From positions 1-64,000 of the forward strand of contig NZ_PXYA01000002.1 of NCBI RefSeq assembly GCF_003841405.1: DNA of 64,000 bases, given 5' to 3'. The notes below the pieces were generated by a model that saw nothing but the letters and a program-made list of their open reading frames with translations, made no database searches and was not told the DNA's origin. A program made the position numbers and the translations under genes. Shown here piece after piece: positions 7,153 through 38,560 of the stretch. The DNA comes from Tetragenococcus halophilus subsp. halophilus DSM 20339 (GTDB lineage Bacteria > Bacillota > Bacilli > Lactobacillales > Enterococcaceae). Position 1 is the stretch's first letter; each line of letters starts with the position of its first letter.

Positions 7153-7440
7153 AAATTGAATAAAGAAACGAAGAAACGTTATTCAAAATTGAAATATTGA
7201 ATAATAAAATAAGAAAACATTATCCAATACTGAAATAATGGATAATGAAATGAGAAAACGTTATTCAAAAAAGATAAAAACGAACAAAAAAACAAAGAAA
7301 TGTTACTTATTGTTGAAAAATTGAAGAGTGGAAACAAGAAGCATTATTCAATATTAAAATAATGAATAATGAAACAAGAAAGCGTTATTCAAAAATAAGA
7401 TATTGAATAAGGAAATAAAAAAGTATTATTCATTATTAAA
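7153..7440. repeat. 41-bp tandem array with alternating inverted arms (array 1)
   Basis: Seven units at an exact 41-bp period. Left arms (TTGAATAA or variant) start at 7156, 7197, 7238, 7279 (degenerate), 7321, 7362 and 7403. Right arms (TTATTCAA or variant) start at 7179, 7220, 7261, 7303 (degenerate), 7344, 7385 and 7426. Pairing the right arm of one unit with the left arm of the next gives TTATTCAA/TTGAATAA, and in one case the matched change TTATCCA/TGGATAA. The array fills the gap between the DUF979 gene and pcp. No ORF of note is present inside. Function unknown. Confidence 0.9.
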
Positions 7441-7463
7441 AAATTAAAGAAAGGAAGAGTAAT

Positions 7464-8111
7464 ATGAAAATTTTAATTACAGGATTCGACCCATTTGGCG
7501 GCGAAAAAATAAATCCTGCGTGGGAAGCAGTCAAAAAACTTCCTAACACCATTAAAGGTGCTGAAATTGTTAAAGAAGAAATTCCAACGGTTTATGGTAA
7601 ATCAGCCGATGTTTGTAAAAAAGCGATTCAAAAACACCAACCAGATATCGTTTTAAATATTGGTCAAGCAGGCGGGCGTTTCACTATTACGCCAGAAAGA
7701 GTTGCTATTAACGTTGACGATGCGCGAATCCCTGATAATGAAGACAACCAACCGATTGACCAAACGATTCAAACAGACGGTCAAGCGGCTTATTTCACAC
7801 AGCTACCTGTCAAAGCGATGGTAGAAAATGTGAAAAATAACGGTTTTCCAGCAGCAGTATCTAATTCAGCTGGTACCTTTGTTTGTAATCATATCATGTA
7901 TCAAGTCCAATATATGATTGATAAAGAGTTCCCTAATATGAAAGGCGGCTTTATTCATGTTCCTTTCATCGCTGAACAGGTTGTAAACAAGCCTAACCAA
8001 CCTTTTATGCAAATTTCTGATATTGCTTTTTGTATCGAAAAGACAATTGAAGCAATTGTTAATTTTGGAGATAAAGATGACTTAAAAGCTGTTGGCGGAG
8101 AAACACATTAA
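7464..8111 (+). CDS. pcp: Pyrrolidone-carboxylate (pyroglutamyl) peptidase I
   Basis: 215-residue cytoplasmic cysteine peptidase that removes N-terminal pyroglutamate from peptides. All family signatures are present: start [13 protein letters not shown], glutamate region [17 protein letters not shown], catalytic cysteine in [14 protein letters not shown], and histidine in GGFIHVPFI. The length matches the family. AAAGGAAGAG precedes the ATG. It lies downstream of DUF969-DUF979, its usual partners, but is separated from them by array 1, and a strong terminator follows at 8126. It may share their transcript or use a promoter within the A/T-rich array. Confidence 0.95.
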
Positions 8112-8125
8112 TAGGTAATAAAACT

Positions 8126-8163
8126 ACCGGAAACAAACACCATAAAAAATGTTTGTTTCCGGT
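8126..8163 (+). terminator. Terminator of pcp
   Basis: Perfect 14-bp stem ACCGGAAACAAACA (8126-8139) / TGTTTGTTTCCGGT (8150-8163), 15 bp after the pcp stop. The T-run is short (ATTTGTCTG). Confidence 0.7.
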
Positions 8164-8344
8164 ATTTGTCTGTTATGCCAAAGATTATTAAAAAAAGACT
8201 TAATAATAAGGAATATATAGAACTTCAGTATTTTTTATGTTACTTTATTAAGTAACAGTAAAGTTTATGACGGTGGCTATCTTTTTCGAAAGTGAGGTGG
8301 TGCGTATGTGCGTACTAACTAAAACTAAAGAAAGGAGAAGCCTT

Positions 8345-8449
8345 TTGTCTGCATTTGAGACGATTCAGGTAATTTTAGGTTTTGGTACATTTACCATCGC
8401 CTTAATTGCTTTAGTCGTTGAATTGCTAAAAAATGACAGAAAAAAATAA
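8345..8449 (+). CDS. Holin-like type I toxin (Hol_Tox/TxpA-BsrG type)
   Basis: 34-residue hydrophobic peptide from a TTG start at 8345 with AAAGGAG 7 bp upstream: SAFETIQVILGFGTFTIALI, then a hydrophobic run and a charged tail KNDRKK. One membrane helix and a lysine-rich end are the pattern of putative holin-like toxins and TxpA/BsrG. The reading frame stays open back to 8267, but that extension lacks membrane features. A bidirectional terminator follows the stop, and a convergent promoter at 8559-8587 would make an antisense RNA overlapping the 3' end, as in txpA/ratA. Membrane depolarising activity is inferred from the family. Confidence 0.7.
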   Translation: MSAFETIQVILGFGTFTIALIALVVELLKNDRKK

Positions 8450-8552
8450 CCGTCAACTTTAGCAGGACGACGATTATTTTTTATTAATCAAACTCTGCCA
8501 CCGTCTTAATCGGTGCTGTTATTGAAGAGTTGTTTACACAACTCTTCTTTAC
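8440..8552 (-). ncRNA. Candidate antisense antitoxin RNA
   Basis: Inferred RNA from the minus-strand promoter (TATAAT complement at 8559-8564), starting near 8552. It would begin with a perfect 10-bp hairpin (8524-8533 / 8538-8547) and end at the bidirectional terminator 8441-8482 (AAAAAATAACCGTC / GACGACGATTATTTTTT), which it shares with the toxin mRNA. It also carries GACGGTGGC (complement of 8497-8505), identical to a stretch in the toxin 5' leader (8269-8277). Size (about 110 nt) and layout fit a type I antitoxin. Confidence 0.55.
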
Positions 8553-8558
8553 ACAACA

Positions 8559-8587
8559 ATTATAACAAATTTTCTTACTCTATTCAA
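8559..8587 (-). promoter_or_regulatory. Promoter of the antisense RNA
   Basis: On the minus strand TTGAAT (8587-8582), 17-bp spacer, TATAAT (8564-8559). The elements and spacing are near consensus for sigma A. It points toward the holin-like toxin gene. Confidence 0.65.
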
Positions 8588-8618
8588 CTTTTATGTTACT
8601 TTAAAAAGCAACATAAAA

Positions 8619-10292
8619 CCTGAATGATTTATAAAAATTTGTGGATAACGCATTCGACTGTTCAACGAGGTGACTTTTATGTTATTTTCCCTTTTTATCG
8701 CCGCTTTTGAATAAAGAATAGAAAGGGATGATCGAACGACGCTAAAAAAAGATAAAATTCTTCCTAGAGAATGAAAGCCAAGCCTTTTTTATCAAGAGGA
8801 AAAGGGGAAAAGTAAACTAGAGATTCAATCGCTGAATTCGTGTAAGGACTTCCCAAAAAAGCGTGTTGTAAACATTCGTACTTGATAAGTGAATTTGCAC
8901 TTGACGCGCGTGTTCTGTGACTTTTCCAGCAATATGAAATAGTTGAAAACGGATCGTGTCAATCACCGTCGTCTTTTTCTCTTGCGGAAAAGTCAGCTGT
9001 TTCATCAAGTGGATGATATTATAGGCGATAAAACTTAGGGCTAAGCGAACCTTATTCGCTAAAAAGGAAGGACTGTCCGTTTTATCAGCGAAAAATCCGG
9101 TCTTCATTTCTTTAATGAAGTTTTCCATATTCCCTCGTTTTTGATAGAGCTGAAAAATGGTTTGGGGCGAAAGATGAGCGAAATCGGTCACCACAAATTG
9201 AAATTCGGAAAAAAGTAAAGTTTCGGCTTTTCGAGTAGCCTTGATGGCTACTGTTCGAGATCGGTCCCAAGAATCTGCTTGATAAGCCATCTTAAAATAT
9301 TGATGTTCGGACTTTGTGTAGTCCGTACCGTTGGTATATTGGACAAGATGTTGCGCATAATGAATCAACCGTACGTTATTTTTCAATTTAATCACATAAT
9401 GGGCGCCTCGACACTCACATTGTTTATAAATTTCCGGTTTGGCAAAGCCACTATCCCGCGTACAAGCATTGTGGGATCACTCGAACGTTGTTGGTAATGC
9501 GCCAACATTTCTACGAGATAATCTTCGGCGTGGGTGGAGGTATAAGATTTGCCATGACGATGGCGAACATCTAATGCCAATCCGGTTAAACCTTCAAATG
9601 CCACAAATGAATGATACCCATTGAGGCCATAGTGGTAAATATATTCCCCTGCTTCTTGCTTTCCGTAAGTGGGACAACAGGTGGAATCCAGATCAAGCAC
9701 GAGTTGTTGGCTGTTTTGCTGGTCCATGCCTAAATCGCCAAGTTTTTTCGCCACTTGTAATAGTTGATTAACATTTTCTTCTGTCAAGGTATGAAGCAAA
9801 GTAGACATCATAAATTGCGAACTAAGGCGTTCTTGTTTCAATGCTTCCTTAAAAAGGCGATCATATTGTAAGGTGTTGGCGTCTCGGTCTCGAGAATAAC
9901 CAGCGATCAATTGATATAGCCATTGTTTTACGACATCCAGCCATTCATGTTGGGCGAAGGCACGATACTCTGGAATATGAACGTATTGCGCTAACAGGGA
10001 ATCAAAACGAATTTGATTTAGAAACTCCGAAAGTAAGACGAGCCCCGCGTCATTGGTTAAGGTGCCACCGTCATTGGCGATCAAGATGGCTTTTTGCTTA
10101 TTGAATGTAAGAGAATTTTGTTGTAAAGTGAAAGACATAAGAACGCACTCCTTATTGTTATGTTTCGTTGACTTTACAATAACACGAAGTGCGTTCTTTT
10201 TGTACACCCAGAAGGTGAAGCAACTCAACCTTTAGAAAAAAGCACATGCCAAGGATTGAATGATCCTGGGAAAAATTTATAAATCATTCAGG
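8619..10292 (-). mobile_element. IS1380-family insertion sequence, complete ends
   Basis: 1674-bp element. Terminal inverted repeats share CCTGAATGATTTATAAA (8619-8635, and its complement ending at 10292). The flanks are TAAAA on both sides (8614-8618 and 10293-10297), a 5-bp target duplication as made by IS1380 elements. It carries one transposase gene on the minus strand, interrupted by a 1-base deletion. The intact ends and duplication suggest recent insertion. Confidence 0.85.
8817..10138 (-). pseudogene. IS1380-family transposase, one frameshift
   Basis: Starts at 10138 (MSFTLQQNSLTFNKQKAILI) and would be about 440 residues. The N-terminal part contains the first DDE aspartate in LVLDLDSTCCPTYGKQ. 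The frame breaks at 9455-9457, where GGG should be GGGG to read LVRGDSGFAKPEIY (second aspartate), and the rest (VIKLKNNVRLIHYAQ through QLYQKRGNMENFIKEMK, with the final acidic residue) is in the next frame. Programmed frameshifting is not typical of IS1380, so this is a mutation or a homopolymer error. The ends of the element look intact, so the copy could still be moved in trans. Confidence 0.85.
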
Positions 10293-10340
10293 TAAAAAGT
10301 TCTAGTAATAACTTTTTAAGATAATCTTATCTGTCCTTTT

Positions 10341-10607
10341 TCAATTATAAACATTTTTTTCATGACCAACTTGAACAGCTAGTACAACCAATTGGCTATC
10401 TTCTATTTCAACGATAACACGATATTTGCCAATTCTATAACGCCATTGACCAGACCGATTTGTAGTTAGTTCTTTGCCAAATTTGCGAGGGTCGTCAATT
10501 CCATCAATATGCTGATACAGCCAACGAGTAATTAAAGTCGCCTGATATTTATCCATTTTTCTAAATTGTTTTTGTATTTCAGAAGTGAAGACTAAGCGGT
10601 AGCTCAT
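10341..10607 (-). CDS. relE: RelE/ParE-family toxin
   Basis: 88 residues, normal length. Pattern YRLVFTSEIQKQFRKMDKYQ at the N-terminus and GQWRYRIGKYRVIVEIEDSQ then VVLAVQVGHEKNVY at the C-terminus matches the RelE/StbE mRNA interferase fold, with the basic R-x-R-x-G-x-Y-R catalytic region. Its ATG overlaps the antitoxin stop by 4 bp. It probably cleaves mRNA at the ribosome unless bound by the antitoxin. Intact, unlike the YafQ-type pair at 4867. Confidence 0.85.
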   Translation of the reverse strand: MSYRLVFTSEIQKQFRKMDKYQATLITRWLYQHIDGIDDPRKFGKELTTNRSGQWRYRIGKYRVIVEIEDSQLVVLAVQVGHEKNVYN

Positions 10608-10834
10608 TCTAAACCTCCAAATTCAGAAAGAATTTCATCCATTGATACTGTTTGCTTACCATTTTCGAGCCAATGTTTATATGCAATCTCAGCTGTTTGG
10701 CGGTCATATTCATCTTCTAATTGTTCCATCGAATAGGTTTTTAAAAGGTCAGACAAAGAGATTCCGTAGAAATCAGCCATATAATTCAACCATTCTTTTT
10801 CCGCGTCACTTACACGTACTGTAATCATAGCCAT
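10604..10834 (-). CDS. relB: RelB-family antitoxin
   Basis: 76 residues with an N-terminal ribbon-helix-helix (MITVRVSDAEKEWLNYMADF then YGISLSDLLK) and an acidic tail ending EILSEFGGLE. GGAGGTGC precedes the start. Co-translated with the RelE-type toxin (4-bp ATGA-type overlap). A perfect palindrome 19 bp upstream of the start is the likely autoregulatory operator. Confidence 0.85.
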   Translation of the reverse strand: MAMITVRVSDAEKEWLNYMADFYGISLSDLLKTYSMEQLEDEYDRQTAEIAYKHWLENGKQTVSMDEILSEFGGLE

Positions 10835-10852
10835 AACAATGCACCTCCACTC

Positions 10853-10869
10853 GTATTACATTGTAATAC
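10853..10869. promoter_or_regulatory. Operator of the relBE operon
   Basis: GTATTACA-T-TGTAATAC, a perfect 8+1+8 palindrome immediately upstream of the antitoxin ribosome binding site, where ribbon-helix-helix antitoxins bind. Confidence 0.65.
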
Positions 10870-11000
10870 AAACAAAGGCCTTCGTCAATTAAACTTCATA
10901 GTTGAGTTAAAGTAACCGTATAAGGACACATACTTGTTTGCGTAAATATTTGTCATTTTACTCAAGAGAATATATAAGATATATATTAGGAGTGATTATC

Positions 11001-11237
11001 ATGTCCGTTAAACTTCGTAAAGTGGGTTCTTCTCATGTTCTAACTGTACCCAATAAATTTAAAGTACCAGAAAATACCGAATTCGATGTTTTTCATGGCC
11101 ACGATGGAAGTATCATTTATACGCCTAAACGGAACAATCCATTCGAAGGAGATTGGTATAACCACGATCTCCAACAAGAAAGTGAATTTGAAAACGTAGA
11201 TGATTTAAATATCGAAATGGTTAGAAAAAGTGGGTGA
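11001..11237 (+). CDS. Orphan MazE/AbrB-fold antitoxin-like protein
   Basis: 78 residues from 11001 (AGGAG 10 bp upstream; the upstream extension to 10938 lacks one). The N-terminus SVKLRKVGSSHVLTVPNKFK is a SpoVT/AbrB swapped-hairpin DNA-binding motif as in MazE/PemI, and the acidic C-terminus resembles a toxin-binding tail. No toxin gene follows: a terminator begins 20 bp after the stop. It is therefore a solitary antitoxin-like regulator or the survivor of a lost pair. Confidence 0.75.
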   Translation: MSVKLRKVGSSHVLTVPNKFKVPENTEFDVFHGHDGSIIYTPKRNNPFEGDWYNHDLQQESEFENVDDLNIEMVRKSG

Positions 11238-11257
11238 TAACAAACTGCACTGTGTAT

Positions 11258-11301
11258 AAACCGACGCTTAACGTAACTCTCTTAAGTATCGGTTTATTTT
11301 T
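11258..11301 (+). terminator. Terminator after the MazE-like gene
   Basis: AAACCGA...CTTAA pairs with TTAAG...TCGGTTT (11258-11295), then ATTTTTTT. Confidence 0.75.
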
Positions 11302-11337
11302 TTGTTAAAAGAAACTTGGCAACCACTTCCCTGTCAT

Positions 11338-11366
11338 TTGAGCCAACTTCCCCACTGTGCTAAACT
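11338..11366 (+). promoter_or_regulatory. Promoter of the Ldh_2-type dehydrogenase
   Basis: TTGAGC (11338-11343), 17-bp spacer, TAAACT (11361-11366) with a TG one base before the -10 (extended -10). Confidence 0.6.
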
Positions 11367-11378
11367 ATAGATAAATAA

Positions 11379-11392
11379 AGCAAGCGCTTACT
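11379..11392. promoter_or_regulatory. Catabolite-responsive element (cre)
   Basis: AGCAAGCGCTTACT matches 12 of 14 positions of the CcpA consensus TGWAARCGYTWNCW. It lies about 12 bp downstream of the -10 at 11361, a repressing position. Confidence 0.6.
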
Positions 11393-11447
11393 TCTTTATT
11401 TTTGCTTTACTTACATAATTAAAAACTTAATTTAGGAGGAATTTTGC

Positions 11448-12554
11448 ATGACAAGCTTCATAGAATGGGATTTTTTGACGGACTTTATCGAAAAGGCTTT
11501 CGCTGCTTATGGAGTACCTCAAGAAGATGCTAAGATTTGTACGGATATTTTGTTGCAGGCGGATAAAAAAGGAATTGAAAGTCATGGTGTGAACCGTTTT
11601 AAGCCTATTTATATCGATCGAATTAAAGCAGGTATTCAAAATCCAATTACAAAATTCGATATTGTACGTGAAACGCCTACCACTGCTGTTGTTGATGGTC
11701 ATGACGGCATGGGACAAGTCATTGGTCATCAATCAATGCAGCTGGCAATTGATAAAGCCAAAGAATATGGCATGGGCATGGTCGCAGTGAGAAACTCCAC
11801 GCATTATGGTATAGCTGGCTATTATACGGATATGGCAGCTGAGGCTGGCTGTATCGGAATGTCGGGTACAAACGCTCGTCCTTCTATCGCCCCTACTTTC
11901 AGTGTAGAAAATAAATTAGGAACCAATCCTTTAACGGTCAGCTTCCCAACTGATGAAGAATTTCCATTTTCATTAGATTGTGCGACTTCTATTATTCAAA
12001 GAGGAAAAATCGAACTATATGAAAGACAAGGTACAGATACGCCAGCAGGTGCAGTCATCGGACGTGATGGTTCAGCAATGACTGATTCTCCTGAAATTTT
12101 AAAAGCACTACAAACCGGAAATGCTGCCTTAGCGCCTCTAGGTGGGATTGGCGAAAAACTTTCCGGCTATAAAGGATACGGTTATGCCACAATTGTTGAA
12201 GTTCTCTCTGCTGCTTTACAACAAGGAAACTTCTTAAGTATGTTATCAGGAATCGGTGAAAATGGCGAAAAAGCAAAATATCATCTAGGTCATTTCTTCA
12301 TTGCTATTGATACCGAAGCTTTTATGGGATTAGAAAGCTTTAAGAAAACTGCTGGTGATATTCTACGAGAACTACGTGCCGCAGAAAAAGCTCCTGATGC
12401 AGATCGAATCTACACACCTGGTGAAAAAGAATATCTTGTTTGGCAAGAACGGCAAAAAACTGGCTTACCTGTGAATGAATCTGTTCAAAAAGAATTAATT
12501 GAAATTCGCAATGAAGCAGGACTAACAGATTATTATTTCCCGTTTGAAGAATAA
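11448..12554 (+). CDS. Ldh_2 family malate/L-lactate/ureidoglycolate dehydrogenase
   Basis: 368 residues, family length. It is an NAD(P)-dependent oxidoreductase of the Ldh_2 (MDH/LDH type 2) family, which acts on 2-hydroxy acids such as malate, L-lactate, sulfolactate or ureidoglycolate. The family signatures are ADKKGIESHGVNRFKP (conserved Ser-His-Gly) near residue 40 and MVAVRNSTHYGIAGYYTDMA with its catalytic-region histidine near 120. AGGAGG is 8 bp upstream. It stands alone with its own promoter and a cre site, so carbon-catabolite repression is likely. Substrate cannot be decided. Confidence 0.85.
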   Translation: MTSFIEWDFLTDFIEKAFAAYGVPQEDAKICTDILLQADKKGIESHGVNRFKPIYIDRIKAGIQNPITKFDIVRETPTTAVVDGHDGMGQVIGHQSMQLAIDKAKEYGMGMVAVRNSTHYGIAGYYTDMAAEAGCIGMSGTNARPSIAPTFSVENKLGTNPLTVSFPTDEEFPFSLDCATSIIQRGKIELYERQGTDTPAGAVIGRDGSAMTDSPEILKALQTGNAALAPLGGIGEKLSGYKGYGYATIVEVLSAALQQGNFLSMLSGIGENGEKAKYHLGHFFIAIDTEAFMGLESFKKTAGDILRELRAAEKAPDADRIYTPGEKEYLVWQERQKTGLPVNESVQKELIEIRNEAGLTDYYFPFEE

Positions 12555-12721
12555 AATGACTTATAATTTATTTAGTTGTTATATTATATTTTTTCTAAAC
12601 TAAAAGTTGAAAATTAGTAAGCAACTGAAAAATAAAGTTCATTATTAAACTACGGCTTTATTTTAAGCTTATTAAAAGCAAATATTTAACTATCAAAATT
12701 CCTTGAATTAGGTTAAAATAT

Positions 12722-12824
12722 ACTCACCCCAAAAAGGGGAAATGTATGGTAACTGTTATAGAAAACTAATTTTTTCAAAATGTTGAAAAGTAGGCAGACA
12801 AGTATATAACTTTTAGGGGTGGGT
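12722..12824 (+). promoter_or_regulatory. Candidate leader switch of the NRAMP-related gene
   Basis: ACTCACCCC (12722-12730) can form a small local hairpin with GGGG (12736-12739). Alternatively it can form a 9-bp helix (one U-G pair) with GGGGTGGGT (12816-12824), which is the ribosome binding site of the gene at 12829. The two pairings exclude each other. No known riboswitch consensus was recognised. The rest of the 274-bp gap (12555-12828) is A/T-rich without an ORF. Confidence 0.35.
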
Positions 12825-12828
12825 AAAA

Positions 12829-14072
12829 ATGGGTCAAAAGAAAAAGCACAAGAAAAGTTTGGCAGAAAAGTTGAAAGGTATGGGACCAGCAGCCATAGTA
12901 ACCAGCGCCTTTGTTGGCCCTGGTACTATTACAACAACAACACTGGCCGGTGTTAATTTTAAATATTCATTATTATGGGCAATCCTTTTTTCTGGCTTGT
13001 CTCTGGTAGTTTTAATGGAAATGGCTGGAAGAATTGGTATTATTTCAAATCATGATATAGCTGAAGCAGCAACTGCGAGTTTTTCAAATAAAAAGCTAGC
13101 AGGAATCATCATCAAAAGTGTCATTGTTGTTACCTTATTTGCTACAGCTTTTGGACTTGAAGCAGGAAATCTTATCGCGGATCATTAGGAATAGCTGATA
13201 GCGCGAATTTTCCACAATGGCTCTCAGCTCTTATTCTTGGAGTAGCTGCATTTTATGCCGTGGCTGTTGGAACTGCCAAAACGCTTGAAAAATTGATGTC
13301 TTTCTTCGTTAGTCTGATGGGCTTTATCTTTATACTTACTATGATACTGGTTGGCCCCAACTACATTGAAGTGTTCAATGGTTTTATTCCAACAAATATC
13401 CCAGAAGGTTCAGGCGTAAACATTATTGCACTGATTGGTACGACTTTGATTGGTATTAATATATTGATGCATGCCACAACCACTGCAGAAAAGTGGCAAG
13501 GCTCTGAGCATTTAGAAGATGCTAATTTCGATATTTATTTTAATGTTGGCATAGGTACAATTATTACATTTGCTATTGTTATTACAAGCGGAACGGTTTT
13601 ATACGGGAGTGGAACCACTGTAGATACACCACTTGTATTTTCACAAATGTTGGAACCCGTATTAGGAAGTTATGCTAAAATCATTGGAAATGTAGGAATT
13701 GCAGCCGCTGGGTTATCATCGGCGATCGCTACACCGCTTATTTTAAAGACCGTTCTGGCTCGACTGTTTCGTTGGGAAGCTAATGGCACGAAAGCACGAA
13801 TAACAGGAGGCTCAGCTGTTATTTTCGGCTCGATATTTGCGGCGATCGGCACAAATCCAACCCAAATGATTGTATTTGCTTCTGCAATTAGCGGTCTATT
13901 TTTACCTATCGTAGCTATTTTGATTATGATTGCCGCAAATAATAAGAAACTGTTACAAGAGTATAGAAATAACATATTTCAAAACATTCTTGGTGGAATC
14001 GCAACGCTGATTACACTTGCTCTTGGTATTAATAGCTTGCTTAATTTCTTTGAAAATTTAACTAGCTTATAG
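12829..14072 (+). pseudogene. NRAMP-related divalent metal transporter, one frameshift
   Basis: About 414 residues with 10-11 helices, the NRAMP (SLC11) fold. The first 118 residues read to 13179-13180, where one G seems missing: GCGGATCA instead of GCGGGATCA. The continuing frame, SLGIADSANFPQWLSALILG, then runs to the end. TM1 carries VGPGT in place of the canonical DPGN, and TM6 carries LMHATTT in place of the MPHN-type motif, so the usual manganese/iron ligands are absent. Such replacement is known in NRAMP-related magnesium transporters and other distant branches; substrate is therefore open. It has its own leader and terminator. Confidence 0.75.
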
Positions 14073-14154
14073 TGCTTAACAAGCGCATGTTTGCTGACAT
14101 CTACCAATGAACTGTAAAATAAAGTAGAGCTTTTCTATTGTTTATAAATTGTTT

Positions 14155-14192
14155 AAAAGAAGGGCGTTTAAACAAAAGCACCCTTCTTTTTA
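14155..14192 (+). terminator. Terminator after the NRAMP-related gene
   Basis: AAAAGAAGGG (14155-14164) / CCCTTCTTTT (14181-14190), ending in a T-run. The rest of the 14073-14315 gap shows no ORF. Confidence 0.7.
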
Positions 14193-14315
14193 CATGCGCT
14201 AAACAAACAACTGTTAAAAGAATATTTAAAAATAAGTCCTACTTTTTTGTTAAAAATACAAAAAAGCATTACGATAATATTGTAGTAAGAAACTTTAAAA
14301 AAGGAGACAAATAAT

Positions 14316-16535: not shown

Positions 16536-16562
16536 AGTTTTGAGAATCATCTGTGTATAAAT

Positions 16563-16602
16563 AACCCCGTCGATTGGCTAGTTTAGTCAATCGACGGGGT
16601 TT
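16563..16602 (+). terminator. Terminator of the GH3 gene
   Basis: AACCCCGTCGATTG / CAATCGACGGGGTT, a 14-bp perfect stem followed by TATTTG. Confidence 0.85.
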
Positions 16603-16637
16603 ATTTGTAAACAAGTCTTTTTTGAACAAAATTACTC

Positions 16638-25841: not shown

Positions 25842-26117
25842 CAGGGAGTAAAATACGAATTTGCTCCCTGTGATTGAAAAGACAGGGAGTGTTTTTTCAT
25901 TTTTTTCCCTGAGATTGCAAAGATAGGGAGCGTTTCGTTTATACACTCCCTGTTATTAAGGATAAAATGGAAATAAGTAAAAAAATCAAACAAAAATCAG
26001 AAAAGATAGGGAATGAAATGCTAATTCACTCCCCATGATTGCAAAGATAGGGGGTACTTTTTCGTTTTGCTCCCTGAGATTGTAAAGATAGGGAGCGTTT
26101 TTCCATTTCTCTACCTG
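25842..26117. repeat. 41-bp tandem array with alternating inverted arms (array 2)
   Basis: About seven periods. AGGGAG-type arms start at 25843, 25884, 25925, 26008, 26049 and 26090. TCCCTG-type arms start at 25865, 25906, 25947, 26030, 26071 and about 26112. All steps are 41 bp except across one degenerate unit (83 bp for two). The spacers are also conserved (GATTGCAAAGA after the C-rich arm, GTTTTT after the G-rich arm). One unit shows a matched change, with the G-C pair flanking the arm replaced by A-T. It lies between dusB (end) and pucR (start). No ORF. Confidence 0.9.
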
Positions 26118-26158: not shown

Positions 26159-26159
26159 A

Positions 26160-29856: not shown

Positions 29857-29858
29857 TC

Positions 29859-30572: not shown

Positions 30573-30626
30573 AACAGATTACTTTAGGTTAATTTTATAA
30601 CTTATCTCAAAAAATATGTAATAAAA

Positions 30627-30702
30627 AGGCGCTTGATTCTCTCACTGTGATAAAAGTCATAAACGAAACTATACTATCACAAATGAGCGGTTCAAGCGTC
30701 TT
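30627..30702 (-). terminator. Long nested hairpin, terminator of the dha operon
   Basis: Outer arms AAGGCGCTTGA / TCAAGCGTCTT (one mismatch), then CTC/GAG, then TGTGATA (30646-30652) / TATCACA (30675-30681). On the minus strand the right end reads into CCTTTTTATT, so it can terminate dhaL transcripts. The size (about 75 nt) and nested perfect arms also resemble a small palindromic mobile remnant. Confidence 0.55.
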
Positions 30703-30731
30703 AAATATATTGCTCCTATTTGCTTGCTTTT

Positions 30732-31331: not shown

Positions 31332-31344
31332 TAAACCTTCCTCC

Positions 31345-32328
31345 TTACCAAGAAATCGTCGTAACATCACTTTCTAAAGCTTCTTTGATCGTTTCATCTT
31401 CTAGATCAATCAAAGTCAAAGAAACACCTTCCATATCAAGCGAAGTCATGTAGTTGCCCACTTTATGGAAAGTGACTTCAACATTTTGTTCTTTTAACAA
31501 ATTCAACACATCATTCATGAAAATAAACTGTTCCATTAAAGGTGTGCCGCCCATACCGTTCACTAAAACGCCCACTTTTTGGGGTTGCTTGTCATAATCC
31601 GACAAAATTTTAGTCACTAGCTCTTGGGCTAAGTCTTTTGACGGCTGTAATTTTTCGCGACGGTAACCTGCTTCTCCGTGAATCCCCACGCCGTATTCCA
31701 GTTCATCTTCGGCTAGTTCGAAACCGGGTTTGCCCACTTCGGGAACGGTAGCTGCGTGTAAAGCCAAGCCAATCGTCTTGATTTTTTTCACCACTTCGTC
31801 CCCTAGTTGTTTCAATTCATCCAAAGAAGCACCTCTTCGAGCTGCGTTGCCCAGAATTTTATGCACCAGAACGGTTCCTGCGACCCCGCGTTTGCCGGCG
31901 GTAAATTCACTGTCTTCCACGGCGATGTCGTCATCCACTACTACGATTTCAGATTGAATATCGTCCATTTCTGCCATTTCTTGGGCCATTTCAAAGTTTA
32001 AATTATCACCTGTATAATTTTTAACGATTAACAACACTCCTTGACCTTGGTCGGCGTCTTGCATAGCGATTTGAATTTGATCGGGGGTAGGTGAAGTAAA
32101 GACATCCCCCGCCACAGCAGCGCTCAACATGCCATCGCCTACAAAGCCCGCGTGTGAAGGTTCATGACCACTGCCCCCACCAGAAACCAAGGCTACTTGT
32201 GGTTTCGTATCATTTTTTACAATAACACGAGAATCTTCGATGCGATGAATAAGGCCAGGATAACTAGCCGATAATCCTCGTAACATTTCTTCAATAACAT
32301 CTTCTGTTTGATTGATAATTTTTTTCAT
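31345..32328 (-). CDS. dhaK: Dihydroxyacetone kinase subunit DhaK
   Basis: 327 residues, family length. It binds dihydroxyacetone covalently on a histidine (GVGIHGEAGYRREK). The N-terminal substrate loop is ALVSGGGSGHEPSHAGFVGD, and LVNGMGGTPLMEQFIF lies near 255. Product is dihydroxyacetone phosphate, which enters glycolysis. It sits 13 bp upstream of dhaL and 21 bp downstream of dhaM, in one operon with glycerol dehydrogenase. Confidence 0.95.
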   Translation of the reverse strand: MKKIINQTEDVIEEMLRGLSASYPGLIHRIEDSRVIVKNDTKPQVALVSGGGSGHEPSHAGFVGDGMLSAAVAGDVFTSPTPDQIQIAMQDADQGQGVLLIVKNYTGDNLNFEMAQEMAEMDDIQSEIVVVDDDIAVEDSEFTAGKRGVAGTVLVHKILGNAARRGASLDELKQLGDEVVKKIKTIGLALHAATVPEVGKPGFELAEDELEYGVGIHGEAGYRREKLQPSKDLAQELVTKILSDYDKQPQKVGVLVNGMGGTPLMEQFIFMNDVLNLLKEQNVEVTFHKVGNYMTSLDMEGVSLTLIDLEDETIKEALESDVTTISW

Positions 32329-32349
32329 CTTATACCCTCCGTTTATTTT

Positions 32350-32748
32350 TTATGACCACTCTTTTTTCCCAGCGTTTTGTGCTTCAGATAGTACTTGTTG
32401 CACATCACTTGTCGTACTAGCTGTGATTGCCGCAGCAAAGGCGCCTTCCACTAAAGGAGCTTCTACCAGATAGTAACGTTCTTGTTGGTCTTCTTCTAAC
32501 ATGTCTTGAGCCATTTCTGCATTGAGGATCGCACTGCCAATATCAGCAAAAACCAAGAACCAATCTTCTTGTCCCGCCTCATTGACGGCATCCACAACTT
32601 TGGTCGGGTCCGAACCGATTTCATTATCTACCGTGCCTCCTAAAGAATAAATAGATACGTCATTTGATGTTTGCATTTGTTCAATCATCTTCTTAAGGCC
32701 ATCGGTAATTTCTTTACTATGAGAAAGTAACAAAAGGCTAGTTTTCAT
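32350..32748 (-). CDS. dhaM: PTS-dependent dihydroxyacetone kinase phosphotransferase DhaM
   Basis: 132 residues, a single EIIA-Man-type domain: start KTSLLLLSHSKEITDGLKKM with the phosphorylated histidine at residue 10 in SHSKEI, and DIGSAILNAEMAQDML near 75. It receives phosphate from HPr and loads DhaL-ADP. No fused HPr or EI domains, the usual short form in Firmicutes. Confidence 0.93.
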   Translation of the reverse strand: MKTSLLLLSHSKEITDGLKKMIEQMQTSNDVSIYSLGGTVDNEIGSDPTKVVDAVNEAGQEDWFLVFADIGSAILNAEMAQDMLEEDQQERYYLVEAPLVEGAFAAAITASTTSDVQQVLSEAQNAGKKEWS

Positions 32749-32776
32749 CTAATCATTCTCCTAACAGTATAAGATT

Positions 32777-32825
32777 AACAGTAATAAGCTGCAATCTAAC
32801 AAACTATGATTGCAGCTTAACTGTT
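32777..32825 (-). promoter_or_regulatory. Intercistronic hairpin between gldA and dhaM
   Basis: AACAGT...AAGCTGCAATC pairs with GATTGCAGCTT.ACTGTT (17 pairs in all). There is no T-run after it on the minus strand, so it more likely acts as an RNA processing or stability element that sets the ratio of gldA to dha products. Confidence 0.5.
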
Positions 32826-32836
32826 CAAGGATGATA

Positions 32837-33979
32837 TTATAACGGACCGTTTTGCTTGTATTCTTCTCCTACTTGATTTGCGACGATAAGCGCGTTAGCT
32901 ACTTGTTCTTCGTCAATTGGAAATGGCATAGAATGAATCGATTCTTCTGGAATACAAGCTTTTTTAGCTACCTCTAGTGCTTGTTCATAAGTAACTTCAT
33001 TTGCTCCGATATCTGCCAAAGTCATCGGCAATCCAACAGAGTGATAAAAGCCAAGTACAGTATTGATTTCTTTTTTTTCTGCGTCTTCTAAAACTAGTTG
33101 AATTAACGTAGTAAAGGCTACTTGTTCACCGTGAAGATAGTCATGTGTCCCTGGTAACACAGTCAAGCCATTATAAATCGCATGAGCAGCTGCTAAACCA
33201 CCACTTTCAAAACCTAAACCAGAAAGCAAAATATTGGTTTCTACAATTTTACTCAACGATTCGGTCACTCGGTTATTGTCAGCCGATAATTTTGCTTTCA
33301 ACCCGTCTTCTTGTAGATTGTCAAAACATAATTTAGCAAGTTGTAATGCTGCATAAGTACCTACTGCTGAAGGTGTGTAACCTTCTCTGGTTCCCATTGG
33401 CAAGCTTGCGTTGACTCTTGAATAAGAGTTGTGCGTTGCACGTGCTTCAAAATACGTTGACATTGCATCACCCATGCCCGCTAGTAAGAAACGAGTTGGT
33501 GCTTGCGCAATGACTGTTGTATCTGCCAACACAACGCCAGGACTTTTCTTGCAATAATAATAATCATCAAAATTATGTTCTTCTGTATATAAAACAGCAG
33601 AATGAGAAGTTGGTGCATCTTGCGCTGCAATCGTTGGAGCAATAATGACTTCTAAGCCTTCACTGTCTGCAACAACTTTTGCCGTATCTAAAGCTTTTCC
33701 TCCGCCTAAACCAACAACACAGTCAGCTGGTTGTTCGTTTAACATGTTTTGCAACCGCTGTACCTCATTTCGCGTAGCTTCTCCATTAAAGCCTGCTTCA
33801 AAAAATTCAACACCATATTTATCAGCCGTTTGGTTCAATTTTGTTCGTACCCGTTCAATGTCTTCATTTTTTCCGATTAATAAAGCACTTTTTCCAAACG
33901 TCGAAACAAAATAACCTAAGTTTAGTAATTCATCTTCGCCTTGAACGTATTTGGTTGGCAAAATCAATGCTTTCCTCAT
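32837..33979 (-). CDS. gldA: Glycerol dehydrogenase
   Basis: 380-residue iron/zinc-type alcohol dehydrogenase that oxidises glycerol to dihydroxyacetone with NAD. The nucleotide loop is VVGLGGGKALDTAKVVAD near 88. Metal ligands are in LAGMGDAMSTYFEARAT (Asp near 173) and the two histidines are in AAHAIYNGLTVLPGTHDYLH then GEQVAF. First gene of the dha operon, so glycerol is oxidised and then phosphorylated. A cre site lies 36 bp upstream and the PocR/AraC regulator is divergent. Confidence 0.95.
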   Translation of the reverse strand: MRKALILPTKYVQGEDELLNLGYFVSTFGKSALLIGKNEDIERVRTKLNQTADKYGVEFFEAGFNGEATRNEVQRLQNMLNEQPADCVVGLGGGKALDTAKVVADSEGLEVIIAPTIAAQDAPTSHSAVLYTEEHNFDDYYYCKKSPGVVLADTTVIAQAPTRFLLAGMGDAMSTYFEARATHNSYSRVNASLPMGTREGYTPSAVGTYAALQLAKLCFDNLQEDGLKAKLSADNNRVTESLSKIVETNILLSGLGFESGGLAAAHAIYNGLTVLPGTHDYLHGEQVAFTTLIQLVLEDAEKKEINTVLGFYHSVGLPMTLADIGANEVTYEQALEVAKKACIPEESIHSMPFPIDEEQVANALIVANQVGEEYKQNGPL

Positions 33980-34014
33980 GTTGATTCCTCCTTAATTTTT
34001 GTTACAATGTTATT

Positions 34015-34028
34015 GTAAAGCGTTATCA
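34015..34028. promoter_or_regulatory. cre site upstream of gldA
   Basis: GTAAAGCGTTATCA matches 12 of 14 positions of the CcpA consensus. It sits between gldA and the divergent regulator, so glucose repression of glycerol use is likely. Confidence 0.65.
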
Positions 34029-34156
34029 TAAAAAAATCATTGAAATTTCATGCTTAATTTTTGTTTATTTTTATTGAACAAACCAACAAAATAGAACTTT
34101 TTTATTATTAATTGACGACATAGATTGAAGAGGTAAGGGATCGGGGGGATACAGAT

Positions 34157-35125
34157 ATGCAACAAATGGATTTAGAAGGTATCTTGGATTTAAGTGAGTG
34201 GGAAAAATTACAAGACGCTATCGCTATAGAAACTCAATTAGCAATTATTTTAGTTGACTATCGTGGCAAACCTGTTAGTACACATAACCAGATTCAACCA
34301 TTTTGTCAACTTGTTCGGCAACACCCTAAATTGAGCAAATACTGCGAAAAGTGTGACGCAAGAGGCGCATTAGAAGCTGTTCGTAAAGGGACTCCTTTCA
34401 TTTACCGTTGCCATTTTGATATTGTTGATATTGCAATTCCAATTATGGTTGAGGGCCATTACATGGGAGCGATCATGGCCGGAGAAGTTCAAATGGAAGA
34501 AAACCAAGATCAGTTAGAGCAAGTCTTAAACGCAGACGACCAAGAACTCATCCAATGGTTCAAAAAAGAACACCAAAAAGCTTATGAACAATTGCCCAAA
34601 TTATCTTTCCAAGACATGGATAAAGCAGCATACATGATTGGTCAGCTGAGTAAATATATTTTGACAGAAATCGTAAAAAAGGGATACTCTGTTCAAAAAC
34701 ATGAAGGTAACAGTATACAGATTTCTTCTAAAGAATTTCAACCAACAAATTCCGCCACATTAGAACTTGTTTCGGAAGAACAAGAAAAAATTAATCTCTC
34801 TTATCAAGCAAAAAATTCACAATTGCAACCCGCTATCGATGCGATGTATGATTCTAATAGAACAGTTGATCTACAATACCTAGCTGAACTAACCAACCTA
34901 AGTCCCAATTATCTCAGTCGTTTAATAAAAGAAGAATTTGGCGAGCCATTTACGCAAGTATACAATAAACTAAAAGTTCGTAGAGCTAAACAACAATTGC
35001 GTGATACTAACAAAACGATTAATGAAATTTCAGATGATTTGGGTTATGTAGATGCAAGTTATTTTGTCCGTACCTTTAAAAAATATGTAGGCACCACCCC
35101 ACTAAACTTTCGAAAAAGTGCTTAA
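34157..35125 (+). CDS. PocR-domain AraC-family regulator of glycerol genes
   Basis: 322 residues. The N-terminal PocR ligand domain carries the cysteine pattern PKLSKYCEKCDARGALEAV and FIYRCHFDIVDIAIPIMVEG (about 20-110). The C-terminal AraC domain has two helix-turn-helices, DLQYLAELTNLSPNYLSRLI and KTINEISDDLGYVDASYFVR. PocR domains are known to respond to propanediol/glycerol-type compounds. Divergent from gldA, so it likely activates the gldA-dhaMKL operon. GGGGGGAT precedes the ATG. Confidence 0.85.
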   Translation: MQQMDLEGILDLSEWEKLQDAIAIETQLAIILVDYRGKPVSTHNQIQPFCQLVRQHPKLSKYCEKCDARGALEAVRKGTPFIYRCHFDIVDIAIPIMVEGHYMGAIMAGEVQMEENQDQLEQVLNADDQELIQWFKKEHQKAYEQLPKLSFQDMDKAAYMIGQLSKYILTEIVKKGYSVQKHEGNSIQISSKEFQPTNSATLELVSEEQEKINLSYQAKNSQLQPAIDAMYDSNRTVDLQYLAELTNLSPNYLSRLIKEEFGEPFTQVYNKLKVRRAKQQLRDTNKTINEISDDLGYVDASYFVRTFKKYVGTTPLNFRKSA

Positions 35126-35152
35126 TGAAAGCTTTAAGTCGAACCATTTTAT

Positions 35153-35212
35153 TTTATATTGGAAGTTACTTCCAATATAAAAAACCGAAGAAAGAAATTG
35201 TTTCCCTCTTCG
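35153..35212. terminator. Convergent terminator structures between regulator and ggt
   Basis: TTTATATTGGAAGT / ACTTCCAATATAAA (35153-35181) is an almost perfect palindrome with a 1-base centre. A second stem CGAAGA / TCTTCG follows (35186-35212). They lie between the convergent ends of the AraC gene (35125) and ggt (35258). Confidence 0.55.
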
Positions 35213-35257
35213 ATTTCTGCATATGTTAATTACTAATTCAAGCTTTCTGCAACGCAA

Positions 35258-36871
35258 TCACCACACAGCAATATACCCATCGGTACGTCCTTCAGTGGCG
35301 GCAACATAGACACCGTCGTCTTGTTGTAAGATGATTTGCCCTCGTCCAATCATAATTGTTTCATTGAGTAATTGAATATTATGTCCTCGTCGTTTTAACG
35401 CTTCGGCAATATGGAAAGGAAAAGAAGGTTCGAGCTGAACAGATTTTCCACTTGTCCATTGCCAACGCGGCGCATCTATGGCTTCTTGTGGATTGAGATG
35501 AAAATCAACCATACTACTTACCACTTGCATATGAGCTTGCGGCTGCAGTGGTCCACCCATCACACCAAAGGGTCCGACGGCTTTGCCATCTTGTGATAAG
35601 AAACCTGGAATAATCGTATGATAAGGACGTTTTCCTGGTTTGATTTCATTCGGATGATCTTTCTTTAAAGAAAACTGATTGCCACGATTGTGCAAGCTGA
35701 TGCCGTAATCGGGAACAACAGCACCAGAGCCAAAACCTGTATAACAACTTTGGATGAAAGAAACCATATTGCCATCTTTGTCAGCAACATTAAAATAAAC
35801 CGTACCACTTGAAGGTATCTTTCCAGGTTTTGGATCCATAGCTTCTTCTGTAATTTGAGACGTACGTTCTTTCGCCCATTTTTTTGAAAGCAACTGCTCT
35901 AAATCAACATTGAGCCCTTCAACTAATGGATCGCCGATAAATTCTAATCCATCCTCAAAAGCTAATTTTAAAGCTTCAATTTGTGCATGATAGGTTTCCA
36001 CATCATCTTTTCCTTGCAACTCCATTTGTTCAAGGTTATTTAGTGCCATCAAAACAATCACACCGATACCATTAGGCGGCAATTGCCATACATCATAACC
36101 TTTATAATTTGTCGACAGAGGTTTCACCCACTCGGGTTGGTATTTCGCTAGGTCTTCTTTGCGTAAATAGCCTCCATTTTCTCTGGAAAAAGCATCGATA
36201 GCCTCCGCAATTTCTCCTTTATAAAAACTTTCGGCGTTTGTTCTGCCAATCTCACGAAGGGTTTTGGCGTGATTGGGGGCTTTAAACAGCTCTCCTGCTT
36301 TTAACGGACGTCCATCAGGACAATAAGTATCAAACCAAGTTTTTAAAACAGGATATTTTTCTAATTGAGCCGAATAAATGCCATAATATCTTTTCCATAA
36401 AGCAGCGACATTCGCCGCTACAGGAAATCCTTCTTCTGCTATCGTCGCAGCAGGTTCAACCGTTTCACTTAAAGATAAATTTCCAAAACGCTCTGATAAA
36501 GCAGCCCAACCACCGGGCGCTCCTGGAACGGTGACAGAGTCTAAGCCGTATAAAGAGATTTCTTCTCCTTTTTCTAATAATTCTTCGCGAGAAATATTTT
36601 CTGGAGCAAAACCGCTGGCGTTTATTCCATAAATCTTCCCCTCATACCAAATGATAGCAAAACAATCGCCGCCAATACCATTTCCTGAAGGTTCGACAAC
36701 CGTTAACGCGGTCGCTGTTGCCACGGCTGCATCAATGGCATTGCCTCCTTTTTTCAGAATATCTAAACCTGCTTGTGAGGCTAAAGGACTTGCACTTGCG
36801 ACAACGCCATTTTTTCCAAACACTAAGTTACGTCGTGACGGATAACGATACATATATGGATCAAATTTCAT
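35258..36871 (-). CDS. ggt: Gamma-glutamyltransferase family protein
   Basis: 537 residues. It splits gamma-glutamyl bonds (glutathione, gamma-glutamyl peptides). The proenzyme layout is visible: large-subunit region KGGNAIDAAVATATALTVVE near 38, the self-cleavage point at the threonine in PSSGTVYFNVADKDGNMVSF near 353, and the small-subunit motif GVMGGPLQPQAHMQVVSSMV near 430. No signal peptide is seen, so it appears cytoplasmic (YwrD-like). It follows a membrane transporter gene 27 bp upstream in the same direction; the pair may import and hydrolyse gamma-glutamyl compounds. Confidence 0.88.
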   Translation of the reverse strand: MKFDPYMYRYPSRRNLVFGKNGVVASASPLASQAGLDILKKGGNAIDAAVATATALTVVEPSGNGIGGDCFAIIWYEGKIYGINASGFAPENISREELLEKGEEISLYGLDSVTVPGAPGGWAALSERFGNLSLSETVEPAATIAEEGFPVAANVAALWKRYYGIYSAQLEKYPVLKTWFDTYCPDGRPLKAGELFKAPNHAKTLREIGRTNAESFYKGEIAEAIDAFSRENGGYLRKEDLAKYQPEWVKPLSTNYKGYDVWQLPPNGIGVIVLMALNNLEQMELQGKDDVETYHAQIEALKLAFEDGLEFIGDPLVEGLNVDLEQLLSKKWAKERTSQITEEAMDPKPGKIPSSGTVYFNVADKDGNMVSFIQSCYTGFGSGAVVPDYGISLHNRGNQFSLKKDHPNEIKPGKRPYHTIIPGFLSQDGKAVGPFGVMGGPLQPQAHMQVVSSMVDFHLNPQEAIDAPRWQWTSGKSVQLEPSFPFHIAEALKRRGHNIQLLNETIMIGRGQIILQQDDGVYVAATEGRTDGYIAVW

Positions 36872-36898
36872 AAAGTTAAATTCCTTTCTACAGTTATA

Positions 36899-38086
36899 TT
36901 AAATAAAGTTGACCATGATTCCCGCAATTACAATCGAAAATACGGTCACAGTGGTCATACTACCCACCACATAACTAGGCATAATGCGATTTAAGACAAT
37001 TTCTTGTTCGTCAGGATCTTCTGTTACGGCTTTAGCTACTTCTTTTGAAATAAGATAAGTGGCTGGAAAGCCGAGATATTGTGCCAAACTAACCCCTGTA
37101 GCTAGAGGTTTTGAACCAATAATTTTGTATCCCGGTAGAATGTAGAAACAAATGATTAAAGCGATAATAGTAACTGCTAAGATGACAATAATTTGGAAAG
37201 CTAAAGATGACAACTGTGCAAAATCAATGTTCGCTAAGGAAGGAATAATCACGGCATAGGTTAACATGGAAATAATTCCTGAAGCTCTCCCTTTATCTAA
37301 AATTCGAGCGGGAACAAGATTATAATAGCCCATAATCGCACCTAAAATAAGGGCCCAAATAGACATATTTACTTGTGGGATCAAGGTTTCCAATGTTACT
37401 GCTACCCAGGAAAAAAAGGTTGCGACCATAATACATACGAAATCGGTAAAATATTTTTGCTTTTGAATCGCAAATCCTTTATTATCTTTTTCTGTTTCGT
37501 TACTTATCATTGAAAACATTGGATCTTCAGGATTCGAGCGGTATTTTTCTAAAATGTTGTTCGCTTCTTTTACACCAAACATCGAAGCAGGATAAGAGCC
37601 AGCAAATTTTTTCACCGCATAAAGAATTGCTGCTAACGCGGCTGGAACAGCTAAGTTAGCATTACTTGCTGCTTCGCTCATAATTTGTGTGGAAATAATT
37701 CCTCCGTTTAACACAGGGATCGTAACAATGGCATTTTCATATCCAATGAATGGGATCAGTACAAATACTGCCAGAGCAACAACCACCATGGATATTAACG
37801 CGGTTACTACGGTGCGCCATTCGCTGATCAATTGTTTTAAATTAATTGTCGTCCCCATATGAAAAATCAACATACCCACAGCCATATCTGCCATAGATGA
37901 TAAACCTGCTTGATCAATAATATCGGCCGGAAAAACGTCTGTCATAAACAGAATCAAAAAAGTAAGCATCACAACAAAAACTGAAGACACTTTCGCTTTT
38001 GTTAAAACACCGAGAACGTCGCCAATCCCGTAAACCAACATAACAAGAAAAAAGTAAAAATAACTGTTTTGGAAAATCTCTTCCAT
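36899..38086 (-). CDS. Integral membrane transporter, GltS-like
   Basis: 395 residues with about 10-11 hydrophobic helices in two halves, and a hydrophilic loop near residues 175-205. Glycine-rich re-entrant-like segments such as IPVLNGGIISTQIMSEAASN and LATGVSLAQYLGFPATYLIS occupy equivalent places in the two halves, as in GltS/CitS-type carriers. I cannot name a substrate from sequence. The tight linkage to ggt (27 bp) suggests glutamate or a gamma-glutamyl compound. AGGAGG precedes the ATG. Array 3 lies in its upstream region. Confidence 0.6.
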   Translation of the reverse strand: MEEIFQNSYFYFFLVMLVYGIGDVLGVLTKAKVSSVFVVMLTFLILFMTDVFPADIIDQAGLSSMADMAVGMLIFHMGTTINLKQLISEWRTVVTALISMVVVALAVFVLIPFIGYENAIVTIPVLNGGIISTQIMSEAASNANLAVPAALAAILYAVKKFAGSYPASMFGVKEANNILEKYRSNPEDPMFSMISNETEKDNKGFAIQKQKYFTDFVCIMVATFFSWVAVTLETLIPQVNMSIWALILGAIMGYYNLVPARILDKGRASGIISMLTYAVIIPSLANIDFAQLSSLAFQIIVILAVTIIALIICFYILPGYKIIGSKPLATGVSLAQYLGFPATYLISKEVAKAVTEDPDEQEIVLNRIMPSYVVGSMTTVTVFSIVIAGIMVNFI

Positions 38087-38402
38087 AAAGCCCCCTCCTA
38101 GGATGTAACTTATTATTTGTCATTTTTTAATTGCTATCATAGCTTAAATTAAAAAATGAGTTATAACGATGAGTATAACTGCTTTTTAATTTTCTGACAA
38201 TAGTCAATTTGCTGAAAATTAACAAAAATATGAAAAAGCATTAACAACAGCATCATTTGCGCAACAACAGGATGTACAATTACCTCTTAAAACAAAAAAT
38301 AAGTCTATTTTTGACGACTTAATCACAAATAGACTCTTACTTAATTTTAATATTTCTATCTAGCTAATTTTCACTTTCTTCTAATAAAAAATTTTGCGCG
38401 TT

Positions 38403-38560
38403 ATACTCAATTCGCAATTATTGGAGGTAACTTCTCTGATGTCCCTCCAATCTGCGAATTATTGGTGGTATCTTTTTCGAGATGCCTCCAATTTAAAAAC
38501 TATTGGAGGTATCTCCTTTGAGGTGCCTCCAATTCATAAACTATCAGTGGCATCTCGAAA
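38403..38560. repeat. 41-bp tandem array with alternating inverted arms (array 3)
   Basis: ATTGGAGG-type arms start at 38420, 38461, 38502 and 38543, and CCTCCAAT arms start at 38444, 38485 and 38526, all at exact 41-bp steps. In the third hairpin the stem extends to 14 pairs (ATTGGAGGTATCTC / GAGGTGCCTCCAAT) using T-G pairs, where the second unit uses T-A at one of the same positions. It lies in the 569-bp gap 38087-38655 between gntR (end) and the transporter gene (start). The rest of the gap holds a weak hairpin around AGTCTATTT/AAATAGACT (38300-38337) and no ORF. Confidence 0.9.

Follow-up and report, generated by a model that had tools for sequence, protein, structure and literature searches.

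The window, which here means the whole 64,000-nucleotide stretch of Tetragenococcus halophilus subsp. halophilus DSM 20339, a halophilic lactic acid bacterium, that was analysed, carries three intergenic arrays in which short inverted arms alternate (Table 1). Their positions and arms were found in the sequence as the initial annotation had given them, and the exact repeat of 41 bp stated there was recovered as well, with lag 41 ranking as the best self-match within each of the three arrays. The period of 41 was also reported by TRF in arrays 1 and 3, while array 2 was missed at score 40. Dyad symmetry, scored in 3-unit segments against 400 column permutations, is significant in the first block of array 1 (p 0.007), in each of the two blocks of array 2 (p 0.002) and in array 3 (p 0.005). 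These permutations on the window arrays, together with the lag scan and shuffles described below, rule out chance as the origin of the pattern. The two mutually exclusive folding registers proposed for each array are a mathematical consequence of one dyad and a period, the second symmetry axis lying 20.5 bp from the first in most arrays. Other parts of the assembly (2,595,756 bases in five contigs) hold near-identical versions of array 1, which come from contig overlap and not from dispersal.

Table 1. Repeat arrays of the window, their units and the genes on both sides of array 1 (window positions).
Feature	Position	Strand	Description
Array 1	7156..7433	.	Family F1, arms TTGAATAA/TTATTCAA; flanked by two + strand genes
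Array 1, dyad units of block one	7156-7186, 7197-7227, 7238-7268		Read by eye
Array 1, middle unit	7280-7311		Degenerate; read by eye
Array 1, dyad units of block two	7321-7351, 7362-7392, 7403-7433		Read by eye
Array 2	25842..26117	.	Family F2, arms CAGGGAG/CTCCCTG; flanked by two - strand genes
Array 2, half-site starts	25842, 25883, 25924; armless middle unit; 26007, 26048, 26089		Eye and script agree
Array 3	38420..38550	.	Family F3, arms ATTGGAGG/CCTCCAAT; flanked by two - strand genes
Array 3, units	38420-38451, 38461-38492, 38502-38533; lone left half-site 38543-38550		Read by eye
pcp-like gene, right of array 1	7464..8111	+	ORF, 215 aa, presumably pcp; used to find the orthologous slot in sister species
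Gene left of array 1	6217..7137	+	ORF; stop 18 bp ahead of the first half-site

Arrays 1 and 2 are both laid out as three units, a middle unit and three further units, the middle one being degenerate or armless, respectively. In both, the successive half-site steps are 41, 41, 83, 41 and 41 bp, and the same series is found with array-2-type arms in Tetragenococcus solitarius, in the slot of array 1. Among the seven block pairs scored, the lag series is either 124/165/206 or 114/155/196. The block distance is accordingly 165 or 155 bp, two values which lie 10 bp, or about one helical turn, apart, and family F1 has both classes (loci L264 and L267). Such block-spacing classes may stem from few events. 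The automatic unit finder was used for array 2, the T. solitarius slot, L267, L150 and L255, and array 1 was read by eye; the results of the finder were left out for L030, L031, L032, L038, array 1, G002, G003, L264 and L266.

A sequence-blind lag scan (lags 20-120, threshold of at least 54/82) covered 863,967 bp, that is, the window and 40 further stretches, or about a third of the genome. It gave 45 matches, with 19 at lag 41, eight at lag 82 and at most two at any other lag; a duplicated contig end accounts for four matches at lag 41 and one at lag 82. Block-shuffled sequence yielded no match in the same scan (lags 20-120). At the looser threshold of at least 46/82, applied to 844 kb of the genome after removal of the stretch duplicating the window, lag 41 was found in 27 segments and lag 42 in seven, and each of the remaining lags from 26 to 60 in at most four. 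A second Tetragenococcus genome (G003) behaved alike over 400 kb at this threshold, with 15 segments at lag 41, one at lag 42 and at most two at the others. The stretches were evenly spaced in 39 of 40 cases in DSM 20339, C1:945001-965000 being chosen over known matches, and one of the 20 stretches of G003 (380001-400000) was set over a known array. The initial annotation had reasoned that periods spread widely around 41 would make the likeness of the arrays coincidental. Across the third of the genome that was sampled, 41 is sharply dominant, so the idea that arrays of different arms follow a single architecture with a step of 41 bp stands. This step is compatible with about four helical turns.

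The period of 41 is the dominant tandem period common to seven arm families (F1-F7). The 41-bp step was read directly in the four families beyond those of the window, namely F4 with CTAGAG-type arms, F5 with CGGACAA/TTATCTG, F6 with AAGAAGG/CCTTCTTT and F7 with AGCACAT-type arms. The arms had been considered array-specific, which does not apply to arrays 2 and 3, since both belong to dispersed families: F2 has six further matches at five loci (E<2e-3), with relatives of array 2 located at C1:760359, C1:117803 and C1:145088, and F3 has 12 further matches at nine loci (E<1e-3). The absence of base-level homology between arrays has likewise to be given up as a general rule. Among 15 valid pairs of family profiles (F2 was left out, and p values are uncorrected), similarity in register was found for F1 and F5 (p 0.004) and for F5 and F7 (p 0.002), as well as for F3 (p 0.014) and F4 (p 0.044) with a family from Ligilactobacillus described below; arrays 1 and 2, moreover, have the same layout. 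Common descent may thus account for some of the shared period.

The slot upstream of the pcp-like gene allows the contents of one place to be compared between species. The gene was found in five of the nine Tetragenococcus genomes sampled (G000-G008). The named relatives closest by this gene are T. solitarius (93%) and T. halophilus subsp. flandriensis (91%), in a listing that may omit records of the DSM 20339 genome itself; by their identical slots, G007 was taken as the former and G002 as the latter. The slot carries TTGAATAA arms in DSM 20339, CAGGGAG arms in T. solitarius, TTGAGTAA arms in G002 and seven units with TTGAGGAA/ACGAGTAA arms in G003, and in G005 it is a gap of about 46 nt without an array. 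Sister species bear different arms or nothing at one slot, and no array was seen in the 16 loci from other genera with the same slot that were viewed. As for gene orientation, 34 array loci of DSM 20339 and G003 were collected, of which four overlap an ORF and two are without a neighbour. The 28 scored loci comprise 17 tandem, nine convergent and two divergent gaps, compared with 281, 99 and 127 among 507 background intergenic gaps of at least 100 bp (no statistical test). The tail-to-head placement noticed earlier is true of all three window arrays but is not general, as only these 17 scored loci are tandem.

The F3 family occurs in eight of nine Tetragenococcus genomes versus none of 96 other Enterococcaceae genomes. 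Among 78 other loci carrying a pcp-like gene, a lag-41 array was found in one, L088 of Ligilactobacillus acidipiscis DSM 15836, and in none of the remaining 77, the signal at L108 being runs of N. Tetragenococcus and Ligilactobacillus belong to different families. The Ligilactobacillus family of arrays has 20 matches in the DSM 15836 genome and is present in three of 26 genomes of the genus (G105, G440 and G448). In 248 kb from G448 and G440, ten segments at lag 41 and none at another lag were detected; these stretches lie on contigs with known matches, which biases the density but not the lag. Nothing was found at lag 41 in 89 kb from six other species. A lag-41 array was likewise absent from 400 kb of 16 other Enterococcaceae genomes and from 358 kb of 20 genomes taken across the order Lactobacillales, where lags from 39 to 60 other than 41 gave 12 matches; these samples are shallow, mostly of 20 kb or less per genome. 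Lag-41 arrays as a general property of the order can be rejected on their absence in these 36 shallowly sampled genomes. An array of the Ligilactobacillus type was found in none of 395 genomes drawn from the order, a weak result given that no known carrier is named among them. Carriage by plasmids or phages was rejected as well, as F3 had no match at E≤1e-5 in either, and F2 and the Ligilactobacillus family had none at this level in plasmids. The titles and abstract openings of the open-licence literature, among the matches listed, describe no such arrays for Tetragenococcus or Ligilactobacillus. The shared 41-bp architecture is real; it extends across Tetragenococcus and into a second genus, Ligilactobacillus.

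The features kept within a unit were determined in two families. The F3 consensus, from 158 distinct units, is dyad-symmetric and reads ATTGGnGGyAnnT, six bases, AnnTrCCnCCAAT. Its steps, counted in 36 arrays of which one (L182) entered on both strands, equal 41 in 113 of 126 cases, 42 in 12 and 40 in one. The Ligilactobacillus family (149 units in 24 arrays) has a step of 41 in 125 of 125 cases, in a scan that permitted 20-60. Between neighbouring units of this family there are 1,232 substitutions in the 33-bp core versus no length change, and in F3 731 substitutions versus 13 length changes. Single arrays are dyad-symmetric at p<0.05 in 17 of 25 cases in DSM 20339, 13 of 15 in G003 and five of ten in Ligilactobacillus, where the 25 include three likely false positives of the lag scan (L154:4080, L160:3235 and L164:9299, two of which overlap ORFs). 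Dyad-symmetric conservation with fixed spacing, as expected of an array of protein-binding dyads, is seen here, with 35 of 50 arrays in total symmetric at p<0.05. The symmetry is weak in F5, where two of three arrays fail (p 0.38 and 0.30). The arms match at 7.86 of 13 positions within units versus 7.51 between units (Wilcoxon p 0.005), with the within-unit axis picked to maximise the arm match.

Array-specific RNAs had been offered as one explanation, with covariation as the check. In distinct units of the Ligilactobacillus family, 15 arm column pairs hold 1,226 Watson-Crick pairs versus 1,227 expected, and G-U is found 218 times versus 222 for A-C, i.e., without a G-U preference. In F3, one arm position varies freely; it is paired in 39 of the 158 units versus 52 expected, with T-T as the commonest combination. 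The remaining arm positions are too conserved for judging. With no arm covariation and no G-U preference, the kept feature is not pairing in RNA or in single-stranded DNA, and the RNA reading finds no basis in F3 or the Ligilactobacillus family. In these two families, spacing and dyad sequence are kept and base pairing is not.

The 41-bp template-switch step suggested in the initial annotation is hypothetical; what the arrays show is that whole 41-bp units are gained and lost. The locus pairs L185/L205 and L188/L229 have nearly identical flanks and arrays differing by exactly one unit, and in Ligilactobacillus, six pairs of loci whose flanks are 87-96% alike have unit counts of 12/12, 8/6, 5/4, 6/5, 5/6 and 6/4. 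Where both loci have 12, the outermost units seem to correspond, whereas local amplification seems to have replaced the inner ones. Some arrays are also associated with an insertion sequence. An ISLre2-type end has 20 matching places, and of the 18 viewed, seven are F5 elements, one is an F3 element, seven are copies of the insertion sequence, among them a truncated one, and three are neither; the window contains neither end pattern. The F5 elements start with such an end and have three units each by eye, with no gene noticed inside. A transposase piece matches PF06782 with E 2.2e-4 and 20.6 bits, under the cut-off of 24.3. The far end of the insertion sequence reads TTTATTGAGGTTGAATAA and appears to include F1-like half-sites. 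The left end of F3 seems similar to AAATTAGCTCTTTATGTTT, which lies close to one end of a different repeated element. An F3 flank resembles another F3 flank in 19 of 36 cases on the left and 16 of 36 on the right, orthologous loci included, and an array is present in one species and absent from another at L181 versus L259. By eye, F1, F2 and F7 have no shared flank. The PF06782 family had no match in G105 and G448, two of the three array-bearing Ligilactobacillus genomes. A set of 24 repeat boundaries, some of which belong to paralogous genes, was inspected, and no other one looked like half-sites. No clean target duplication was seen in nine aligned locus pairs, whose flanks have diverged; two of these pairs differ in copy number, and in one both loci are filled. 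ISLre2 as a general driver finds no support in Ligilactobacillus; since the transposase family is missing in two of three carriers there, this type of insertion sequence would carry some families and not be the general cause.

BOX elements of Streptococcus pneumoniae and S. suis are intergenic repeats in which a variable-number middle module lies between end modules, and different ends share middle modules in S. suis; they are reported to be overrepresented between convergent genes, with no avoidance of divergent ones reported (PMC3049150). By this description, the arrays resemble BOX in being short intergenic tandem modules, with convergent gaps at nine of 28 loci versus 99 of 507 (no statistical test), and differ in having a 41-bp step in several arm families, many arrays without end modules, and an arm pairing that is not conserved in F3 and the Ligilactobacillus family. 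Among the arrays themselves, F5 has a conserved end and some F3 flanks are alike, and arrays 1 and 2 have no end modules by eye. The insertion-sequence end of F5 is a likeness to ISLre2-related MITEs, but such ends were seen only in F5 and part of F3, and no target duplication was seen in the diverged flanks aligned. EFAR repeats of Enterococcus faecalis, from a related genus, are modular palindromic repeats as well, but form variable-length assemblies and are set apart by this description. REP/BIME elements are marked by a GTAG/CGTC foot and an associated RAYT transposase. Minisatellites, or VNTR, share with the arrays the change in whole-unit copy number and homogenisation, but the arrays are scattered across many loci, differ in their letters while holding to one period, and mostly have dyad-symmetric units. 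CRISPR was rejected, as the whole 41-bp unit repeats and there are no unique spacers.

We tentatively interpret the arrays as helically phased inverted half-sites for a putative dimeric protein binding double-stranded DNA, a reading to which we give not quite an even chance; the protein, its binding, its dimeric state, helical phase as the reason for 41 and an effect on genes are all what we infer. In this model, each 41-bp unit would be one dyad of two inverted half-sites of roughly 13 bp each. Opposite half-sites would alternate every 20.5 bp on average, which is about two helical turns and would therefore place all half-sites on one face of the DNA. The dispersed intergenic arrays would be bound by the dimeric, probably cooperative protein, the spacing being maintained by selection or by a turnover mechanism as the letters drift by family. 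Across families, this would require one tolerant protein or several. The sharp period, the spacing held in F3 and the Ligilactobacillus family against many substitutions, the dyad-symmetric F3 consensus, the lack of a pairing constraint in these two families and the two block distances about one helical turn apart speak for this reading; the arrays without significant dyad symmetry and the slight excess of within-unit over between-unit arm match speak against it. Within one family, neutral tandem duplication would equally preserve the period, and the main rival is a drifting minisatellite, selfish or neutral, in which all arrays would descend from a single palindromic ancestor of 41 bp that spread and diverged, whole units would be added, lost and homogenised through slippage and unequal recombination, and the period would be inherited and not selected. 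This scenario is the less probable of the two and somewhat unlikely overall. It agrees with the one-unit differences at the two Tetragenococcus locus pairs, the unequal unit counts in five of six Ligilactobacillus pairs, the four of 15 family pairs similar in register (p<0.05, uncorrected), the single layout of arrays 1 and 2 and the few arrays in divergent gaps (two of 28 versus 127 of 507, no statistical test). It is harder to reconcile with the Ligilactobacillus family, where many substitutions but no change in length were counted, with the retention of 41 by families without recognisable similarity, and with a period that is found in two distant genera and in none of the 36 other genomes sampled shallowly.

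Movement by insertion-sequence transposases, with MITE-like elements whose arrays would be transposase-binding or passenger sequence, is improbable as the overall account. The ISLre2-type end on seven F5 elements and one F3 element among 18 viewed, the transposase piece matching below the cut-off, the apparent likenesses of F1 half-sites and of the F3 left end to sequences of repeated elements, the resembling F3 flanks and the presence/absence pair speak for it, whereas the missing shared flanks in F1, F2 and F7, the lack of a PF06782 match in G105 and G448, the divergent alignments without a target duplication and the other boundaries, among 24 inspected, unlike half-sites speak against it. 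Still less probable are BOX-like arrays of RNA hairpins acting in transcripts on stability or termination. Such arrays would suit the strong predicted RNA folding relative to shuffled sequence (z -7.0, -6.5 and -8.3) and the position of 26 of 28 scored arrays in tandem or convergent gaps, a setting that would permit their transcription. The fold energies, however, cannot discriminate, because any palindromic array folds well, and the almost invariant loop length, the missing covariation in F3 and the Ligilactobacillus family, the latter without G-U excess, and the lack of an Rfam match at gathering score within the arrays argue against hairpins. A structured RNA element was rejected on the absence of compensatory stem changes in both families.

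A wider form of the dimeric-protein reading, which we regard as speculative and unlikely, is a genome-wide spatial code. Dozens of intergenic phased platforms would be read by related proteins, or by one tolerant protein, for spacing and symmetry over sequence, and would organise the nucleoid or intergenic transcription; the letters would be turned over in concert with the geometry kept, and the code would be common to, or passed between, Tetragenococcus and Ligilactobacillus. Tandem repeats normally have a common period because they have a common sequence. Here, the period of 41 persists across families with little recognisable sequence likeness and in two distant genera, and the pattern suggests that conservation acts on the spacing itself more than on the letters. 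If the spacing is selected, the need of a DNA-binding system for helical phase would be directly testable by half-turn shifts; if it is not, the arrays would be a clean natural system in which to study how bacterial repeats turn over by whole units and evolve in concert.

The start of the second contig of the genome (window 1-10300) is present twice at the end of the first contig (G000:C1:1147901-1167867), with an identity of 99.5-99.9%. This doubling is an assembly overlap, and it is because of this overlap that array 1, an intergenic array of inverted repeats with a 41-bp period, is seemingly triplicated. Three further features of the window are collected in the table; the 1.68-kb repeated element is probably an insertion sequence.

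Additional features of the window and the basis of their assignment
Feature	Window position	Basis
RefB11 (Enterococcus sRNA B11)	62620-62789	Rfam match
rli28 (Listeria sRNA)	8231-8415	Rfam match
1.68-kb repeated element, ends CCTGAATGATTTATAAA	8617-10297	repeated sequence

At L255:18334-18762, the units of family F7 (AGCACAT-type arms, 41-bp step) are arranged in three successive blocks of three units each, and 73 bp separate the last half-site of one block from the first half-site of the following one. A second dispersed element, provisionally grouped as one family, was noted at five places (L147:14213, L149:11148, L157:11983, L154:17718 and L133:15009), each with 22-47 self-matches; part of it repeats in tandem at lags of 87-92 bp and carries the palindrome GAATCGTAGTGATTC.

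Over 3.1 kb, the locus of array 3 (window 36903-40060; L178, L179) has an identity of 97.8% to the Tetragenococcus genome G001 and 99.5% to G002, taken as T. halophilus flandriensis. In the comparison with G002, the slot of array 1, upstream of the pcp-like gene, is much more diverged than this locus. A recent transfer between species is possible.
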